Positions 4,753-13,031 of a stretch of 46,599 nt of DNA are shown here, one piece after another. Numbering within the stretch: the first letter of the stretch is position 1; each line of letters begins with the position of its first letter. The stretch covers positions 1-46,599 of the forward strand of contig PAZF01000016.1 of the NCBI GenBank assembly GCA_002715505.1. The letters are read 5' to 3'. Source of the DNA: Candidatus Pelagibacterales bacterium. Lineage in GTDB: Bacteria > Pseudomonadota > Alphaproteobacteria > TMED109. The notes beneath the pieces were generated by a model that saw only the letters and a program-made list of their open reading frames with translations, had not been told where the DNA came from and ran no database searches. Position numbers and translations under genes: made by a program.

Positions 4753-6153
4753 ATGAAAAATAAAATAAATAAAAGAAAAAAAAATCTTTGGGCAGGTAGG
4801 TTTAGCGAAACGCCTAGTGAGATTATGTCTGATCTAAATGCTTCTATAGGCTTTGATAAAAAGCTTTATGAGGCAGATATAAAAGCCTCAATTCATCACG
4901 CTGAAATGTTAGCAAATCAAAATATTATCAAAAAAAGTGAATCAAAGAAAATAAAGGATGGACTTCTGAAAGTTAGAGAAGAAATAAAAAATAACAAAAT
5001 GATATTTAAGAATGACTTAGAGGATATTCATACACACATTGAGGCTAGACTTATAGAAATAATAGGATCTACAGGAAAGAAGCTTCATACAGCAAGATCT
5101 AGAAATGATCAAGTTGCTACAGCGACAAAAATCTGGGCTAGAGAAGAATGTAAAAATATAAATAATCTATTAAAAAAATTACAGAAGGCCTTATTAGATA
5201 AGGCAACATTACACATAAATGATATTATGCCAGGGTTTACCCATTTACAGCCTGCACAGCCTGTATTATTAGCACATCATTTACTAGCCTACGTTAATAT
5301 GTTTGGCAGAGACAGAGAAAGCTATTTTAGTCTTAGTAGGCATAACCTATCTCCCTTGGGTAGTGCAGCATTAGCAGGTACTAATTACAATATCAATAGG
5401 GAAGAAACAGCAAATAAAATGGGTTTTGAGGGAATAATGAGGAATTCTTTAGACGCCGTGTCAGATAGAGATTTCGTGTTAGATATTTTAAACTTGTGTT
5501 CTCTAATATTTATACATTTAAGTAGGTTATCTGAAGAAATAATAATTTGGAGCTCGCCAGGATTCAATTTTGTAACTTTGTCTGATAAGTATTCAACTGG
5601 ATCATCCATAATGCCTCAGAAAAAAAATCCTGATGCGGCCGAGTTAATAAGAGGGAAAAGTGGAAGAATAATAGGAAATTATGTAGCCTTATTTACTGTA
5701 ATGAAGGGGCTACCTTTGGCCTATTCAAAGGATATGCAGGAAGACAAAGAGCCTTTATTTGACAGTATTGAAACAACAAAAAGTTGCTTGAATGCAATGA
5801 TAGGCATGATTGAGACAATTAAGTTTATACCTAAAGAAATGAAATTAATGTGTTCTATAGGATTTTTGACTGCTACCGATATGGCAGATTGGTTTGTCAA
5901 AGAACTTAATATGAATTTTAGAGACTCTCATAAATTGACTGGAAAAATAGTTAAAATTGCTGAAGAAAAAGGATTGTCTTTAGAAAAATTAAGTCTTAAA
6001 GATTTAAAAAAAATCAATCCAAAAATTTCCAAAAATTTACTTGCTGCTATTAGTTTAGAAAGGTCTATTAATAGCAAAACTAGTATAGGTGGAACTGCTC
6101 CCTTAAACGTAAAAAAAGAAATTTTATTAGCAAAGGAAAAATGGCTAAAATAA
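4753..6153 (+). CDS. argH: argininosuccinate lyase
   Basis: A 466-residue enzyme that splits argininosuccinate into arginine and fumarate, the last step of arginine synthesis. It belongs to the fumarase/aspartase superfamily, whose signature GSSIMPQKKNPDAAEL is present near residue 285 and carries the catalytic Ser loop. Other typical blocks are LWAGRFSE near the N-terminus, HTARSRNDQVAT and PGFTHLQPAQPV. Length matches the family. The ATG is preceded by AAGAGG, a good ribosome site. It heads a run with lptM, lysA and the DUF4175 gene. Confidence 0.97.
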   Translation: MKNKINKRKKNLWAGRFSETPSEIMSDLNASIGFDKKLYEADIKASIHHAEMLANQNIIKKSESKKIKDGLLKVREEIKNNKMIFKNDLEDIHTHIEARLIEIIGSTGKKLHTARSRNDQVATATKIWAREECKNINNLLKKLQKALLDKATLHINDIMPGFTHLQPAQPVLLAHHLLAYVNMFGRDRESYFSLSRHNLSPLGSAALAGTNYNINREETANKMGFEGIMRNSLDAVSDRDFVLDILNLCSLIFIHLSRLSEEIIIWSSPGFNFVTLSDKYSTGSSIMPQKKNPDAAELIRGKSGRIIGNYVALFTVMKGLPLAYSKDMQEDKEPLFDSIETTKSCLNAMIGMIETIKFIPKEMKLMCSIGFLTATDMADWFVKELNMNFRDSHKLTGKIVKIAEEKGLSLEKLSLKDLKKINPKISKNLLAAISLERSINSKTSIGGTAPLNVKKEILLAKEKWLK

Positions 6154-6281: not shown

Positions 6282-7550
6282 ATGGAAGGTTTTTCATATA
6301 ATAATAAAAAGCTGCATTGCGAGCAGATTTCTATAGAAAAAATTTGCAAAAAAATTGATACGCCTTTTTATCTCTATTCTAGTAAAGGAATTTTAAGTAA
6401 CTTCAATGCATTATCAAATAAGTTAAAAAACTGTAATGTTTTGATAGCGTATGCAGTAAAAGCTAATTCCAATATATCAATTTTGAGGTTGCTAGCAAAA
6501 AAGGGCGCAGGAGCAGATGTTGTATCATATGGAGAGCTAATCAGAGCTATAAAAGCTGGTATTCCTGGAAAAAAGATTGTTTTTTCAGGAGTAGGGAAGA
6601 CAGATTTAGAAATTTCTAAAGCTATAGATCATAAAATTTTACAATTTAATATTGAGTCATTACATGAGCTACATACAATAGAGAAAATTTCTAGAGAAAA
6701 GAATATAAAAGCCAATATTGCTGTAAGGATTAATCCAGATATAGAAGCCGGAGGTCATCCTAAAATATCTACAGGTAAAAAAACAGATAAGTTTGGTATA
6801 TCCATAACCGAAGCTCTAAAAGTATACAAGCTGGCTTCAGATAGTTCATTTTTAAATATAGTTGGGGTTGATATGCATATAGGATCTCAAATTTTACAAA
6901 TTAAACCATTTAATAATTCTTTTAAAAAGATTGAAAGATTTTGCAAAAAATTAGAAAGTATAAACATAAAAATCAAAAATATTGATTTAGGAGGAGGCCT
7001 AGGAGTTAACTACTCTGATAAAAAAAATGTTGATTTAACAAAAGAATATACAAACTTAATTAAGAATATATATAGCAGCACTAAAAAGAAAATAATAATA
7101 GAACCAGGAAGGTTTATTGTAGCTAATGCCGGTATTTTAGTAACAAAAGTAATTTATAAAAAAAAAAATGATAAGAAAAATTTCATTGTAGTGGATGCTG
7201 GTATGAATGATTTCTTAAGACCAGCACTTTATGATGCTAGGCACAATGTAAAGCATGTTATAATCAAATCAAATAAGTCAAATTCTGATTTTTTTGATAT
7301 TGTCGGTCCAATTTGTGAATCAGCAGATGTAGTTGCTGAAAATGCTAATTTGGATAGCGATATTAAAAAAGATGACCTTCTGTTTATAGATAATGTAGGA
7401 GCTTACGGAGCCACTATGTCATCAACTTATAATAGCAGGAGTTTAATTCCAGAAATACTAGTCCATAAGAAAATGTTTTATAAAATTAGAAATAAAATGG
7501 AAGCAGATGATTTTATAAAATTAGAGAAAATACCTAATTGGTTAAAATAA
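6282..7550 (+). CDS. lysA: diaminopimelate decarboxylase
   Basis: A 422-residue fold-type III PLP enzyme that decarboxylates meso-diaminopimelate to lysine. The PLP-binding lysine is Lys60 in IAYAVKANSN. Further family blocks are GAGADVVSYGEL, RINPDIEAGGHPKISTGKK..DKFGI, DMHIGSQI, the glycine-rich DLGGGLGVNY, EPGRFIVANAG, and the C-terminal GPICESADVVA and GAYGATMSSTYNSR that complete the active site. Length is normal. It follows the lptM-like gene by 3 bases and precedes the DUF4175 gene by 3, consistent with one operon. Confidence 0.97.
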   Translation: MEGFSYNNKKLHCEQISIEKICKKIDTPFYLYSSKGILSNFNALSNKLKNCNVLIAYAVKANSNISILRLLAKKGAGADVVSYGELIRAIKAGIPGKKIVFSGVGKTDLEISKAIDHKILQFNIESLHELHTIEKISREKNIKANIAVRINPDIEAGGHPKISTGKKTDKFGISITEALKVYKLASDSSFLNIVGVDMHIGSQILQIKPFNNSFKKIERFCKKLESINIKIKNIDLGGGLGVNYSDKKNVDLTKEYTNLIKNIYSSTKKKIIIEPGRFIVANAGILVTKVIYKKKNDKKNFIVVDAGMNDFLRPALYDARHNVKHVIIKSNKSNSDFFDIVGPICESADVVAENANLDSDIKKDDLLFIDNVGAYGATMSSTYNSRSLIPEILVHKKMFYKIRNKMEADDFIKLEKIPNWLK

Positions 7551-7553
7551 TTT

Positions 7554-9944
7554 ATGTTATACAATTTTCTTAAAATTAGAACTATTCAGTTATTATTAAA
7601 CTTAAATAAAAACCTCAAATATATCTTTATATCTTTTTTATCTCTATTATTTTTATTTACATTTTCTACATTTGGATTTTGGAATTTATTATCAGGTTAC
7701 TATCATTTAACTACTCTAATTGCTTTATTGGCCTTTATGATCTTTATTTTAATCTTTTATAAAAAAAAGCTTAGTTTTATTTCTATTAAAAGCACTATAG
7801 TTTGGTTGGAGAGTAAAAACTATACAAATATAAACCCTTTATCAGCAATTAAAGACATTCCTGCAGGAGATAAAACTAATTTATTAATGTGGGATGCTCA
7901 CATAAAGCAAACAAGAGCAAGTCTTAAAGATCTGGTTTATTATTTTCCAAAAATAACCTTAGAAGCAGTAGATCCTTTAAAAGTTAGGTTTATTTTTATT
8001 TTGTTTTTTATTTTATCTATTTTTTGGGGATTAAATAATAACGTATTGAAACAAAACTTAGTAAAAATATATGTTATTAATTTAAACAAAGTAGATAAAT
8101 TGAAAGAAAAATATAATGTATTAGCACGTTTAAAGCCACCTGCATATACAATGTTGCCACAAAGAAAGATTGAGATAAAAAATTTTAATAATGAGGAAAC
8201 AAGAAAAATTAATGTTCCTTTTTCAAGTGAATTATTATTACAAACATTTGGTGAGAGTTCCAAAAAAATGAAAATTACTATAGATAAAAAAAACGAATAT
8301 TATAGTAAAGATAATGACAATTTAAATATAAATTATAAATTAATGTATAGTCAAAACCTCAAAATTGAAACAAAAGATAATACTGAAATAAATATTTATC
8401 TTAATATAATTGAAGATGAAAAGCCTGAAGTAAAATTTTTATCTAATCCAGAAGTAGTCAATGGGGTTAGTTTAAAGTTTTTAACAGAAGCTAAGGATGA
8501 TTACGGAATAGTAAAAGGTTATGTTACTTTCACCAAACCATTTGGTTTTGAACATTTTATAGAAAAACAATTAAGATATGATTTGCCAGTTTCGAAAGAT
8601 AATAAAAATTTATTTAAGAGTATGTTTTTTAAAAACATGTCTAGTCATATATGGGCAGGAAATAATTCAAATATAAATATTAACTTTTATGATGATTTGG
8701 ATCAAAAAGGAACAATTTACAAAAATATTTTTATACCTGAAAAAAAATTCACCTCCTTAAAAGCAAAATTAATTTATGAGGTAAGAACCGACCTAGCAAA
8801 AAGAAAAATATCTTTATATGAAGCAAAGAAAATCATAGATAATATTATATTAGAAGAGAAAGATTTTGAGTTCGATGAGTTAATAAAGGAAAAATACTTT
8901 ACTGTTATTTCTAAATTAAATGAGCTTAAAAAGATTCCTATATCTTATAAAAGCTCGTTCTATAAAGACTTGTGGGAGTTAGCAATTGCTGTAGAAGAAG
9001 GAGAGGTTTTTTCAGTAAAAAAAAATTTAGAACAAATAGAACAAAACTTATTTGACAGTATAAATCAAAGAGACACAGAAAAAGTAAGCACCAATGTTGA
9101 TAAATTTAAAGAGTCCATTCAGAGTTTGTTAGATATCAATAAACAAGATAGACGAAACTCTTTTTCTAATAATGAAAATAATATTAAAGAGCAACTAAAA
9201 AAAGCGACCAAAGATTTAGAGGATTTACTTAAAACAGGAACTAAGGAGAATCTGGATGAAAAAGTTCAAGAATTAAGGCAATTAGCTGATTCTATAAAAA
9301 ATCCAAAAAAATTAGACAAAAATCAGCTTTTTAAAGAGCAAAAAAAAAGGGAATTTATCAATAAGTTATCAGAACTTCTTAATGAGCAAGAGCTGATAAT
9401 GGAAGAAACATTTAATGAGGCTGCAAACAGAGGAAAGTTTAAGCAAAGTTCAGAGGGAAGTGGGGGCAGAACGTCAAAGGAAAGACAGGAAAATTTAAGA
9501 AATACATTAGGAAATATCATGCGAGATATTGGTGAGTCAGAAAATGAAATTCCTCAGGAACTCGGAAGGGCTGATAGAGCTATGAGGCAGGCAACAAGAG
9601 AGTTAGAAGGTGGAAGACCTGATCAAGCCTCAAATGCTCAAGGTAGAGCTACAGAAATGTTACGTAGAGGAATGGAGAGAATGAGGTACAATAATAATTT
9701 TGCACAAAACTCTTCATCTCAAAAAGAAAATAATATAGAAAATCAATATGAAAAAAACTTTAGTGACTCGAATAATAACTTAGAATACCAAGGAACTTCA
9801 TTAGGGGGAACTATAGAAATTCCCAAAAAAGTTAAAATTCAAAAAGCTCAAAAAATAGCTAAGGAACTTTATACTAGATATAATCAAAAGGGTAGAAGTA
9901 TTAAGGAAAAAGAATACATTAAAAATTTACTTGATTGGTATTAA
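7554..9944 (+). CDS. DUF4175 / TIGR02302 family large membrane protein
   Basis: A 796-residue protein of unknown function, recognised as the DUF4175/TIGR02302 family by position after lysA and by layout. Two or three N-terminal membrane helices (about residues 24-45, 52-70 and 148-164) precede a long periplasmic-type region. The C-terminal third is charged and helical, including ELLNEQELIMEETFNEA near residue 610 and ELGRADRAMRQATRELEGG near residue 665, followed by a low-complexity Asn/Ser-rich segment and a short conserved tail. It overlaps the convergent zinc-ribbon gene by 18 bases. An envelope role is plausible but not shown. Confidence 0.82.
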   Translation: MLYNFLKIRTIQLLLNLNKNLKYIFISFLSLLFLFTFSTFGFWNLLSGYYHLTTLIALLAFMIFILIFYKKKLSFISIKSTIVWLESKNYTNINPLSAIKDIPAGDKTNLLMWDAHIKQTRASLKDLVYYFPKITLEAVDPLKVRFIFILFFILSIFWGLNNNVLKQNLVKIYVINLNKVDKLKEKYNVLARLKPPAYTMLPQRKIEIKNFNNEETRKINVPFSSELLLQTFGESSKKMKITIDKKNEYYSKDNDNLNINYKLMYSQNLKIETKDNTEINIYLNIIEDEKPEVKFLSNPEVVNGVSLKFLTEAKDDYGIVKGYVTFTKPFGFEHFIEKQLRYDLPVSKDNKNLFKSMFFKNMSSHIWAGNNSNININFYDDLDQKGTIYKNIFIPEKKFTSLKAKLIYEVRTDLAKRKISLYEAKKIIDNIILEEKDFEFDELIKEKYFTVISKLNELKKIPISYKSSFYKDLWELAIAVEEGEVFSVKKNLEQIEQNLFDSINQRDTEKVSTNVDKFKESIQSLLDINKQDRRNSFSNNENNIKEQLKKATKDLEDLLKTGTKENLDEKVQELRQLADSIKNPKKLDKNQLFKEQKKREFINKLSELLNEQELIMEETFNEAANRGKFKQSSEGSGGRTSKERQENLRNTLGNIMRDIGESENEIPQELGRADRAMRQATRELEGGRPDQASNAQGRATEMLRRGMERMRYNNNFAQNSSSQKENNIENQYEKNFSDSNNNLEYQGTSLGGTIEIPKKVKIQKAQKIAKELYTRYNQKGRSIKEKEYIKNLLDWY

Positions 9945-10235
9945 ATTTAAGAAAAAATTATATAATTCTGTCCAATATACGTCTATATAAACAAGTTTAT
10001 CTTTGTAAAGCACTATTACAATAATTGTAATAATGATTAATATAAAGTTTAGAATTAATATATGCTTGAAAGCTTTTTCTGATTTTTTCTTTGCAGGTAA
10101 TTTTGGATTTTTTATTTTTATATTTTTTTCCCAAATATGGTTACAAATACTGCATTTAAATTTAGAAAAGCTTAATTTTCCTTTTTCCTCAGGAACTCTG
10201 AAAGTGGATTTACATTTTGGGCATTCAACTAGCAT
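9927..10235 (-). CDS. MJ0042-type zinc-ribbon membrane protein
   Basis: A 102-residue protein with an N-terminal zinc ribbon: CPKC at residues 5-8 and CSIC near residue 32 supply four cysteine ligands, in the MJ0042 pattern VECPKCKSTFRVPE. A lysine-rich linker leads to one transmembrane helix (about residues 58-80) and a short tail. In Alphaproteobacteria this gene is commonly divergent from ftsE, as here with a 70-base gap, but its job is not established. The tail that follows the helix is short compared with many relatives. Confidence 0.8.
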   Translation of the reverse strand: MLVECPKCKSTFRVPEEKGKLSFSKFKCSICNHIWEKNIKIKNPKLPAKKKSEKAFKHILILNFILIIITIIVIVLYKDKLVYIDVYWTELYNFFLNLIPIK

Positions 10236-10305
10236 AATTTTTGTATTTAACTTCTTAATTATTTTGAATTAAAATATAACAAATAAGTGCTAAAGGGTAA
10301 ATAAA

Positions 10306-10962
10306 TTGATAAGGCTAGAAAATATTTTTATAAAACTTAATGAAAACAAAACATTAATAAGTAATATTAATATTTTTATACCATCTGGAAGCTTAATTTC
10401 TATTGAGGGAAAGGCAGGATCAGGAAAAACCAAGCTTTTTAAAATATTGGGACTTAAAGATAAAGTTGATACTGGAAATCTTTACATATTGGGTAAAAAT
10501 GTTAATAAGTTAAGTAGAACTGAATTGTCAGCATTGCATAGCGAAATTAGTTTAGTTTTTGAAGATAATGATTTAATAGATAATCTAAGTGTAGAAGCAA
10601 ATATTATACTACCCTTAATAATGACAAATAAAAGTAAAGATGAAATAGAAATAGCAGTTAATGAGCTAGTTTCTTGGTTAAATATAAATCAAATTTTAGA
10701 AAAAAACATACTCCATTTAAGCAATTATGAAAAAAAAATGGTACAATTCGCCAGGGCTATAATAACAAGGCCTAGAATTCTACTTTTAGATAATTTTTTT
10801 AATGGATTAGATCGTGAATATGAAAAAAAAATATCTTACTTACTATTAGCTTTAAAAAAAATAGGAACTACTATCATCTCATTTAGAAGTATAAATAATT
10901 CAGCTATATTAAGTTACAATGAGAGTTATAAAATAGAGAATTTTAATCTTGTTAGACAATGA
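10306..10962 (+). CDS. ftsE: FtsE-like cell-division ABC ATPase, degenerate motifs
   Basis: A 218-residue ABC ATPase whose size, MIRLENI start and position before an FtsX-like gene identify it as FtsE, partner of FtsX in regulating cell-wall hydrolases at the septum. Walker A is intact (GKAGSGKT, residues 35-42). Other key positions have changed: the Q-loop Gln is Glu86 (VFEDND), the signature LSGGE is LSNYE (138-142), the catalytic Glu after Walker B is Asn163 (ILLLDN), and no H-switch His is present (ISFRSINN, 191-198). Nucleotide may bind, but normal hydrolysis is doubtful. The start is TTG. It overlaps ftsX by 4 bases. Confidence 0.8.
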   Translation: MIRLENIFIKLNENKTLISNINIFIPSGSLISIEGKAGSGKTKLFKILGLKDKVDTGNLYILGKNVNKLSRTELSALHSEISLVFEDNDLIDNLSVEANIILPLIMTNKSKDEIEIAVNELVSWLNINQILEKNILHLSNYEKKMVQFARAIITRPRILLLDNFFNGLDREYEKKISYLLLALKKIGTTIISFRSINNSAILSYNESYKIENFNLVRQ

Positions 10963-11768
10963 ACTATAAATTTATCAAATATTTAGGAATTAAATGCTTT
11001 CCTTCTAACTTACTAGACTACTTAGGGCATTGTATTTTTAATTTTTTCTTTTCTTTAGTAATTATAATAAATATTCCCTTTTTAAATAATATTTTATTTC
11101 ATGAACATAAAACCTCTTATATTCTTTTAGTTCCTAAAATATCTAATAATTTTGAAGAAAAGAAAGATTTAATATTTTCTGGGCTGAGTCTCAATACAAA
11201 TATTATTTCAGTTAGGGAGGTAGAAAAAAAAATTATTCTTGAAAAATTAAAAAAAAAAATAGAATTGATCGATGAGGATTTAGTTCCTGAAGTTTTTGAA
11301 GTAACTCTTAAGAAAAATAAGAAACTCGATTTAGAAAAAGAAAATAAAAAAGTTGATGAAGTTCTTCAAGGAGCACAAATACTTGATAAAAAAATAGATT
11401 ATCATAAATATAATTCAGATAATTATTTTTTATTAGGATTTTCAGTTTTTTTATTTCTATCTATTTTAGTTGTCTTGCAAATTGACTTTGTTAAAAAATT
11501 AAAAGTATTCTTGGAGAAGTCTAGAAATTTTGGGGCGAAAGATAGAGATTTGCTTTACAATATAAGTTTAGGATATTTATTATTTCAATTCTTAGGGATA
11601 TTTTCTGCATACTTTTCTTTTAATTTTTTTGAAAGCAATTTTAAAAAACCCTCAATCTTTACAGTAGAAAATTATGAGACAATTATTATTTTTATATTTC
11701 TACAAAATATGATTTGCTATTTGAACTTAATATTTACTCTAAGGTATACTTTGAGGAGAATTTTTTAA
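10959..11768 (+). CDS. ftsX: FtsX-like cell-division membrane protein, divergent
   Basis: A 269-residue membrane protein with four predicted helices: one near residues 28-47, a periplasmic segment rich in Lys and Glu (about 48-150), then helices near 153-172, 205-225 and 245-262. This is the FtsX topology, and the gene overlaps ftsE by 4 bases (ATGA). Sequence resemblance to well-studied FtsX is weak, so the name rests mainly on topology and neighbourhood. FtsX normally transmits the FtsE cycle to periplasmic amidase activators. The stop shares one base with the DUF218 gene start. Confidence 0.7.
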   Translation: MNYKFIKYLGIKCFPSNLLDYLGHCIFNFFFSLVIIINIPFLNNILFHEHKTSYILLVPKISNNFEEKKDLIFSGLSLNTNIISVREVEKKIILEKLKKKIELIDEDLVPEVFEVTLKKNKKLDLEKENKKVDEVLQGAQILDKKIDYHKYNSDNYFLLGFSVFLFLSILVVLQIDFVKKLKVFLEKSRNFGAKDRDLLYNISLGYLLFQFLGIFSAYFSFNFFESNFKKPSIFTVENYETIIIFIFLQNMICYLNLIFTLRYTLRRIF

Positions 11769-12325
11769 TGGCTATGTTTAGAAAATTCTTATTTATAACA
11801 GTTGCACTAATAATAATTTTTCTAATAGTGGGTTTTGTTAGGTTTTATTTTTCTATCAAGAGTTATCAAAAATCTGACAACTACAATATTGATGGAATCG
11901 CAGTTTTAACTGGGGGAAAAGGAAGAATAGCTGAAGGAATTAAAATTTTTAAGGAAAATCCAGAAAGCTATTTATTGATATCTGGAGTGGATAAAATTGT
12001 AGAGATAGAAGAAATAATCCCTGTAGATTTTTTAAAGATGAGAAGAGTATTTATTGATAAAAAATCAGAATCTACATTAGAAAACGCAAATGAAATAATT
12101 ACCTGGTCTAATAAAAATAAAATTAAAAATATATTAATTATAACTTCTGACTATCATATGCCAAGAAGTATGCTAATACTTTCTAAAAGAGGGGATGGCC
12201 TAAGTTTTTATGCTAATCCTGTTAATAGCAATATAAGATTTGAAAAAAATTTTATTAAAGATATTAAATTAATACAGTTTTTACTGGTAGAGTACTTTAA
12301 GTATTTGTTATATTTGGTTATATAA
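11768..12325 (+). CDS. DUF218 / YdcF-like membrane-anchored protein
   Basis: A protein of 185 residues with one N-terminal membrane helix (about 6-26) and a DUF218 (YdcF/SanA-like) domain. Domain marks are AVLTGGKGRIAEGIK, a SESTLENANE block and ITSDYHMPRSM. The start chosen is the ATG at 11768, which overlaps the ftsX stop (TAATG) and has GAGGAGA about 10 bases upstream. An in-frame ATG at 11714 would add residues encoded inside ftsX and lacks such a site. In Alphaproteobacteria this gene often sits between ftsX and plsC. Function is unknown, probably at the envelope. Confidence 0.82.
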   Translation: MAMFRKFLFITVALIIIFLIVGFVRFYFSIKSYQKSDNYNIDGIAVLTGGKGRIAEGIKIFKENPESYLLISGVDKIVEIEEIIPVDFLKMRRVFIDKKSESTLENANEIITWSNKNKIKNILIITSDYHMPRSMLILSKRGDGLSFYANPVNSNIRFEKNFIKDIKLIQFLLVEYFKYLLYLVI

Positions 12326-12329
12326 TTCA

Positions 12330-13031
12330 ATGATATTAAGATCTATAGTTTTCAATTCAATATTTTATTTTACTATTTTCTTCTTTGGTATTCTGTTTTT
12401 GCCACTTTTAGTCTCAAAAAAATTGACAAGTTTTGCTGTTAAATTTTGGGCGAATTTAATAATTTTTTCATTCGAAAAAGTTATAGGAGCTGAGGTAATA
12501 TATGAAAATAAATATATATTTAAAAATAAAGGGTATTTAATTGCAGCAAACCATCAATCAGCTTTTGATACTATTTTTTTTTTAAAAAAATTTGATAAAG
12601 CTATCTACGTAGTTAAAAAAGAGCTTAAATTTATACCTATTTATGGATGGTATGCAATGAGACTTGGAAATATTTTTATAGATAGAAAAGAAAGAATTAA
12701 GTCTATTAAAAATCTTTCGGAAAAAGTTTGGTATTCTTTAAATAACAACTACAAGGTAATAATTTTTCCTGAAGGAACCAGGCAAACTGATAATAAAATT
12801 GGAAATATGAAGCCTGGTATTTATGCTTTACAAAGGTTTTGTAAACATCAAGTCTATCCTGTTTATATTGGTTCTAGCTTAGCATGGCCTAAAAATTCAT
12901 TTATTAAAAATAATAGGAAAGTTAAAGTTAAAATATTAAAACCTATTAAATGTGACTATACAAAAGCTGAATTTCTAAATAAACTGCAAAATGAACTTCA
13001 GAATGAACATCAAAAGACTTATACAATATGA
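12330..13031 (+). CDS. plsC: 1-acyl-sn-glycerol-3-phosphate acyltransferase
   Basis: A 233-residue PlsC-family acyltransferase that makes phosphatidic acid from lysophosphatidic acid at the inner membrane. The catalytic HX4D motif is NHQSAFDT and the glycerophosphate-binding motif is FPEGTRQ. A hydrophobic N-terminal helix (about residues 8-29) anchors it. It follows the DUF218 gene by 4 bases and overlaps the RND adaptor gene by 4 (ATGA), so envelope lipid synthesis and efflux are transcribed together. Substrate preference cannot be read from the sequence. Confidence 0.92.
   Translation: MILRSIVFNSIFYFTIFFFGILFLPLLVSKKLTSFAVKFWANLIIFSFEKVIGAEVIYENKYIFKNKGYLIAANHQSAFDTIFFLKKFDKAIYVVKKELKFIPIYGWYAMRLGNIFIDRKERIKSIKNLSEKVWYSLNNNYKVIIFPEGTRQTDNKIGNMKPGIYALQRFCKHQVYPVYIGSSLAWPKNSFIKNNRKVKVKILKPIKCDYTKAEFLNKLQNELQNEHQKTYTI

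Follow-up and report, generated by a model that had tools for sequence, protein, structure and literature searches.

FtsE normally burns ATP to control, through FtsX, the splitting of the wall at cell division, and the two proteins form an FtsE2X2 assembly. It is disputed between species whether FtsEX must hydrolyse ATP, only bind it or do neither in order to activate wall hydrolases. The window analysed here (the whole stretch of 46,599 nucleotides) carries a motif-poor ftsE (10306..10962, plus strand), read from its translation as 218 aa with a TTG start. What, then, is an FtsE without most of its catalytic motifs kept for?

The motifs were located in the translation and by alignment with 108 other FtsE from many families across Alphaproteobacteria. 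Walker A (GKAGSGKT, residues 35-42, 10408..10431) and the Walker B Asp162 (10789..10791) are retained. At A-loop position 11 (10336..10338), Leu replaces a near-invariant Tyr; the Q-loop Gln86, also Gln in E. coli, has become Glu (VFED, 10561..10563); and the signature LSGGE reads LSNYE (residues 138-142, 10717..10731). The catalytic Glu163 is Asn (LLLD-N163-FF, 10792..10794) and the H-switch His195 is Ser (10888..10890), with FRS at 193-195 where ATH is expected. The preliminary description had listed Glu86, LSNYE, Asn163 and FRS, and all are present in the translation; it had overlooked the A-loop Tyr11 and Pro164, which is Phe here and Pro in 107/108 of the other sequences. It had also called the altered positions near-invariant, and the alignment agrees: Gln86 and Gly38 occur in 108/108, Glu163, His195 and Gly141 in 107/108, Tyr11 in 105/108 and Gly140 in 98/108. 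The ATGA overlap that joins ftsE to ftsX at 10959 is real, as had been claimed, and the opposite strand is rich in stops.

The window ORF is a syntenic, foldable and genuine FtsE. TIGR02673 (FtsE) is its best NCBIfam family, though its score of 123.4 bits is less than half the curated cut-off of 264.85 bits. In the tree, its clade (support 1.0) groups with FtsE to the exclusion of LolD (0.99), and not with the LolD or MacB paralogs; the gene sits at the position orthologous to ftsE within the lineage's ftsE-ftsX operon. The AF2 model is a complete NBD (pLDDT 88.9), whose best PDB matches in Foldseek are the FtsE chains of the FtsEX complexes 8ymc and 8hd0. None of the 28 genomes of the window's family (eight genera, some genomes incomplete) encodes an FtsE above the cut-off. 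The possibility that the genome encodes an additional, intact FtsE was rejected, since the best other FtsE-like matches in the 28 family genomes were LolD or MacB, ten of the top matches having been named by family search.

The motif losses are not confined to the window. Nine complete orthologs from three genera were compared, namely the window gene, three congeners (genus g1), one g3 genome and four g8 genomes; all nine frames are intact, and the eight others share 44-67% identity with the window protein. Position 163 is Asn or Ser in all nine. His195 is gone from every one of them, its place being taken by Ser, Ala, Glu, Lys or Asp with no consistent substitute, and both signature glycines and the A-loop aromatic are missing throughout. 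Gln86 is retained only in the four g8 sequences, and no new acidic residue is invariant at positions 163-164 of the nine. Conversely, G35, G40, K41, T42, S139, E142 and D162 are invariant. Thus, the P-loop and Walker B have been kept while the residues for hydrolysis and for the ATP sandwich have been lost. As these losses are common to nine complete orthologs, chance or sequencing error is ruled out. The comparison with relatives proposed in the preliminary description therefore finds the changes kept in congeners and in two further genera. Its statement that Walker A is intact holds for the window genome but not beyond it, Gly38 being Ala, Ser or Asn in the other eight orthologs.

Compared with canonical FtsE (TIGR02673; E. 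coli, P. aeruginosa, Caulobacter), the clade proteins are alike in adjoining ftsX, in length, fold, P-loop and Walker B Asp, and in a tree position within FtsE and apart from LolD. They differ in lacking the A-loop Tyr, Gln86 (in most), the signature Gly-Gly, the catalytic Glu and the switch His, and the window protein differs in its score (123 against a 265-bit cut-off).

Codon models indicate that the gene is nevertheless maintained. For ftsE, omega was 0.053 in g1 and 0.027 in g8, and the three closest genomes gave 0.092 (0.041-0.128 over 25 codon bootstraps); this last set deserves most trust, because synonymous sites are saturated in the deeper ones. Canonical ftsE in three other groups gave 0.051-0.058, and neighbouring genes were similar. 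Given that the clade values resemble those of canonical FtsE, ftsE is not decaying, and these models gave no sign of relaxed selection on it. The dN/dS check suggested earlier thus points to purifying selection (omega 0.03-0.09), and the earlier view that this is not a dying pseudogene stands; a pseudogene or frameshift reading was rejected on omega and the nine intact frames. A tenth copy (genome G019, L039:6120-6145) is broken where a run of A is one nucleotide too long. Since its frame is otherwise conserved, the break is probably an assembly error.

The partner gene, ftsX (10959..11768, plus strand, 269 aa), is diverged. It has no Pfam or NCBIfam match, and its sequence profile had no match in the PDB, so structure was used to identify it. 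The top seven Foldseek PDB matches of its AF2 model (pLDDT 72) are all FtsX chains, and AF2 secondary structure and Foldseek describe a four-TM type VII subunit with a periplasmic domain between TM1 and TM2. In the conservation comparison, the periplasmic domain (residues 51-147, 11109..11399) and the coupling-helix region (residues 181-200, 11499..11558, containing SRNFGAKD) reach a mean identity of 0.44, against 0.27-0.37 in the membrane segments, and the coupling region is the most conserved part of the protein. The gene follows ftsE wherever the clade ftsE occurs.

The surrounding operon, established by locus comparison and family searches, is anchored upstream by argH (4753..6153), lysA (6282..7550) and a DUF4175/TIGR02302 gene (7554..9944), all on the plus strand, then by an MJ0042 zinc-ribbon gene on the minus strand (9927..10235). 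Downstream, on the plus strand, lie a DUF218/ElyC-like gene (11714..12325, true start probably 11768) and a plsC-like acyltransferase gene (12330..13031). The order argH-lysA-DUF4175-(MJ0042, reverse)-ftsE-ftsX-DUF218-plsC-RND is kept in every relative having ftsE, and a distant alphaproteobacterium has argH-lysA-ftsE-ftsX-DUF218-plsC.

Within the family, motif-poor ftsE and ftsX occur in g1, g3 and g8, which the family tree places in one monophyletic group with 100% support. The corresponding operon of g2, g4 and g5 has the DUF218 gene directly after the MJ0042 gene, with no ftsEX in between, and FtsX is missing from every genome of g2, g4, g5 and g7. Profile searches of the g2, g4 and g5 operons found no remnant of ftsE or of ftsX; weak tblastn candidates did not survive profile search and comparison with shuffled controls. 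The family has lost ftsEX once or twice, given the unstable placement of g7, which is basal in the family tree and falls elsewhere with wide sampling. It should be noted that the g7 genomes (L138-L142) are larger and richer in GC, and that their position in argH+lysA trees varies with sampling, which suggests that composition bias is probably behind the shifting placement.

Moreover, 3/3 readable g1 and 6/6 readable g8 genomes have an EnvC/LdpF-like gene between rsfS and ctpA (one of the six g8 copies being cut by a contig end), so that this gene accompanies motif-poor FtsEX in all nine readable genomes. Its product consists of a coiled coil and a degenerate LytM domain with a profile match to EnvC structures, a likeness to EnvC and Caulobacter LdpF; unlike those, it was read in congeners, since it lies outside the window and the local copy falls in an assembly gap. 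The locus is also unreadable in g3, where ctpA is at a contig edge. In the window's genome (97.6% complete), nadD, envC and ctpA are all missing, apparently as one unassembled block; as nadD and ctpA are missing too, the envC stretch was simply not assembled. There is no envC in g2, g4 and two g5 genomes, where rsfS and ctpA are immediate neighbours. Two other g5 genomes, also without ftsEX, contain stop-bearing EnvC/LdpF LytM remnants (E 1.8e-26 and 4e-10) at L226:1188-1361 and L227:1045-1413, on the reverse complement of the locus, and g7 gave no EnvC match. The presence or absence of EnvC/LdpF thus follows that of ftsEX at readable loci, a pattern resting on one or two losses.

M23 peptidases occur in 8/8 genera and Amidase_3 in 7/8, with or without ftsEX, the exception being the g4 genome (82% complete), in which no Amidase_3 was found. 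The earlier proposal that wall hydrolysis is controlled differently in this lineage holds in part, as the four sister genera without ftsEX keep M23 and all but g4 show Amidase_3. That sister genera have lost ftsEX together with envC shows that the whole module is dispensable even where amidases and other LytM factors are retained.

When E. coli FtsE binds ATP, FtsX shifts and the restraining arm of EnvC is freed, and hydrolysis resets the complex (PMC12505981). An E. coli FtsEX carrying the hydrolysis-dead FtsE-D162N recruits EnvC and supports cell separation if NlpD is present, while this form blocks constriction through FtsA (PMC7343993). According to a passage citing the work in PMC11139282, activation of AmiB in V. 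cholerae is reported to be nucleotide-independent, and modes vary among species. The EnvC counterpart of Caulobacter, LdpF, binds the FtsX loop via its coiled coil (PMC5607218). Changes of the kind seen here occur in asymmetric ABC exporters, one of whose two sites is degenerate, with Glu replaced by Asn, His lost and, in Pdr5, the signature LNVEQ (PMC7756269). NBS1 of Pdr5, TAP and TM287/288 thus resemble the clade FtsE in the Glu to Asn change, the lost His and the broken signature, but they have one degenerate site of two, whereas an FtsE homodimer of the clade would have both. The literature searched turned up no natural FtsE described as lacking its catalytic residues.

We strongly infer from the aligned residues that the clade FtsE has lost hydrolysis. 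Operon context, FtsX and the co-occurrence of EnvC support a complex that is retained and functional. From the E. coli D162N data, the variation of activation among species and the binding of LdpF to FtsX, we hypothesize, with a probability of roughly 0.6, that FtsE here has given up ATP hydrolysis and has been kept as a non-hydrolysing FtsEX subunit that scaffolds EnvC. The loss of the hydrolysis machinery would date back to an ancestor shared by the three genera, which are marine Alphaproteobacteria; FtsE would still fold and dock on the coupling helix of FtsX, with K41, T42 and D162 perhaps holding nucleotide passively, and would lock FtsX in one conformation. FtsX would then recruit or hold EnvC/LdpF at the division site, and amidase activation would be set by localisation rather than by ATP cycling. 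The first suggestion, of an FtsE that holds ATP in a static role, is no more than plausible: K41, T42 and D162 are invariant, and the P-loop and D162 are under selection, but stable binding of ATP is doubtful now that the A-loop aromatic and the signature glycines, which clamp the nucleotide, are gone.

The E. coli laboratory mutants FtsE-D162N and E163Q are similar in giving an FtsEX that is predicted to be hydrolysis-deficient and able to recruit EnvC. They differ in that the clade losses are natural, clade-wide and affect many motifs at once, and in that the mutants are expected to be ATP-locked and to inhibit constriction. It speaks against the scaffold reading that a hydrolysis-dead FtsE blocks constriction via FtsA in E. 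coli, so that the coupling to FtsA would have to differ in the clade.

Another explanation is that FtsEX is on its way out, its ATPase lost as the pathway waned, so that the clade genes would stand partway along a slow path to the complete loss observed in sister genera. The absence of ftsEX and envC from the syntenic sites of g2, g4 and g5 and of FtsX from g7, the envC remnants in the two g5 genomes and an ftsX omega of 0.08-0.12, faster than that of neighbouring genes, are in its favour. We consider it unlikely, because ftsE evolves as slowly as canonical ftsE and the genes around it, keeps an invariant P-loop and core across the nine diverged but intact frames, and has its sole broken copy off by a single A.

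It is improbable that the clade FtsE still hydrolyses ATP using substitute residues. The invariance of K41, T42, D162, S139 and E142 and the Gln86 of g8 would fit such residual activity, but it would have to proceed with Asn or Ser for Glu163, nothing consistent for His195, no invariant new acid at 163-164 and neither signature glycines nor A-loop aromatic in any of the nine. A recruitment of FtsE to a role outside division, with FtsX as a membrane anchor, is very improbable: an FtsX so diverged that no family matches it, with variable membrane segments, would suit that idea, but its structural matches are FtsX, the locus is ancestral, and presence or absence tracks EnvC/LdpF. Pairing of the degenerate FtsE with an intact LolD-like ATPase subunit, for which the exporters above and the other NBDs of the genome (e.g., LolD) offer a precedent and candidates, is hardly credible, since the operon contains no second NBD gene, FtsEX is known as FtsE2X2, and LolD-like genes occur in genera without ftsEX as well and so are not specific to it.

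Returning to the scaffold reading, a second motif-poor FtsE was found among the 108 other sequences, in a genome of another alphaproteobacterial family (G373, L298:7923-8615). It has LSPSE and VADDLL, with Asp in place of the catalytic Glu, and it lacks the switch His and the A-loop aromatic; its ftsE gene order is standard, and the three relatives listed as closest to it have canonical FtsE motifs. In the FtsE tree it branches with the window's clade (0.96), a placement that dissolves when either is removed, whereas the argH+lysA tree separates the two. An independent origin is therefore favoured, although not proven.

The motif-poor FtsEX is a new form of a known system and is wider than one genome. 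The clade offers a natural experiment in which catalytic residues have been deleted while the complex and its EnvC partner are kept; it allows what FtsEX does as a scaffold to be told apart from what it does as a motor, and it provides ready-made proteins for in vitro tests. We suggest tentatively, at slightly under even odds, that it represents a natural FtsEX-EnvC system activating septal amidases without ATP hydrolysis, with both sites of the FtsE homodimer dead, selected across genera and, to judge from G373, probably evolved more than once.

Finally, TTG is the start codon of all nine complete clade ftsE genes, ATG or GTG being common elsewhere, and a conserved stretch resembling AAAGGGTAAATA precedes the TTG in several of them (10286-10308 in the window, and in orthologs).
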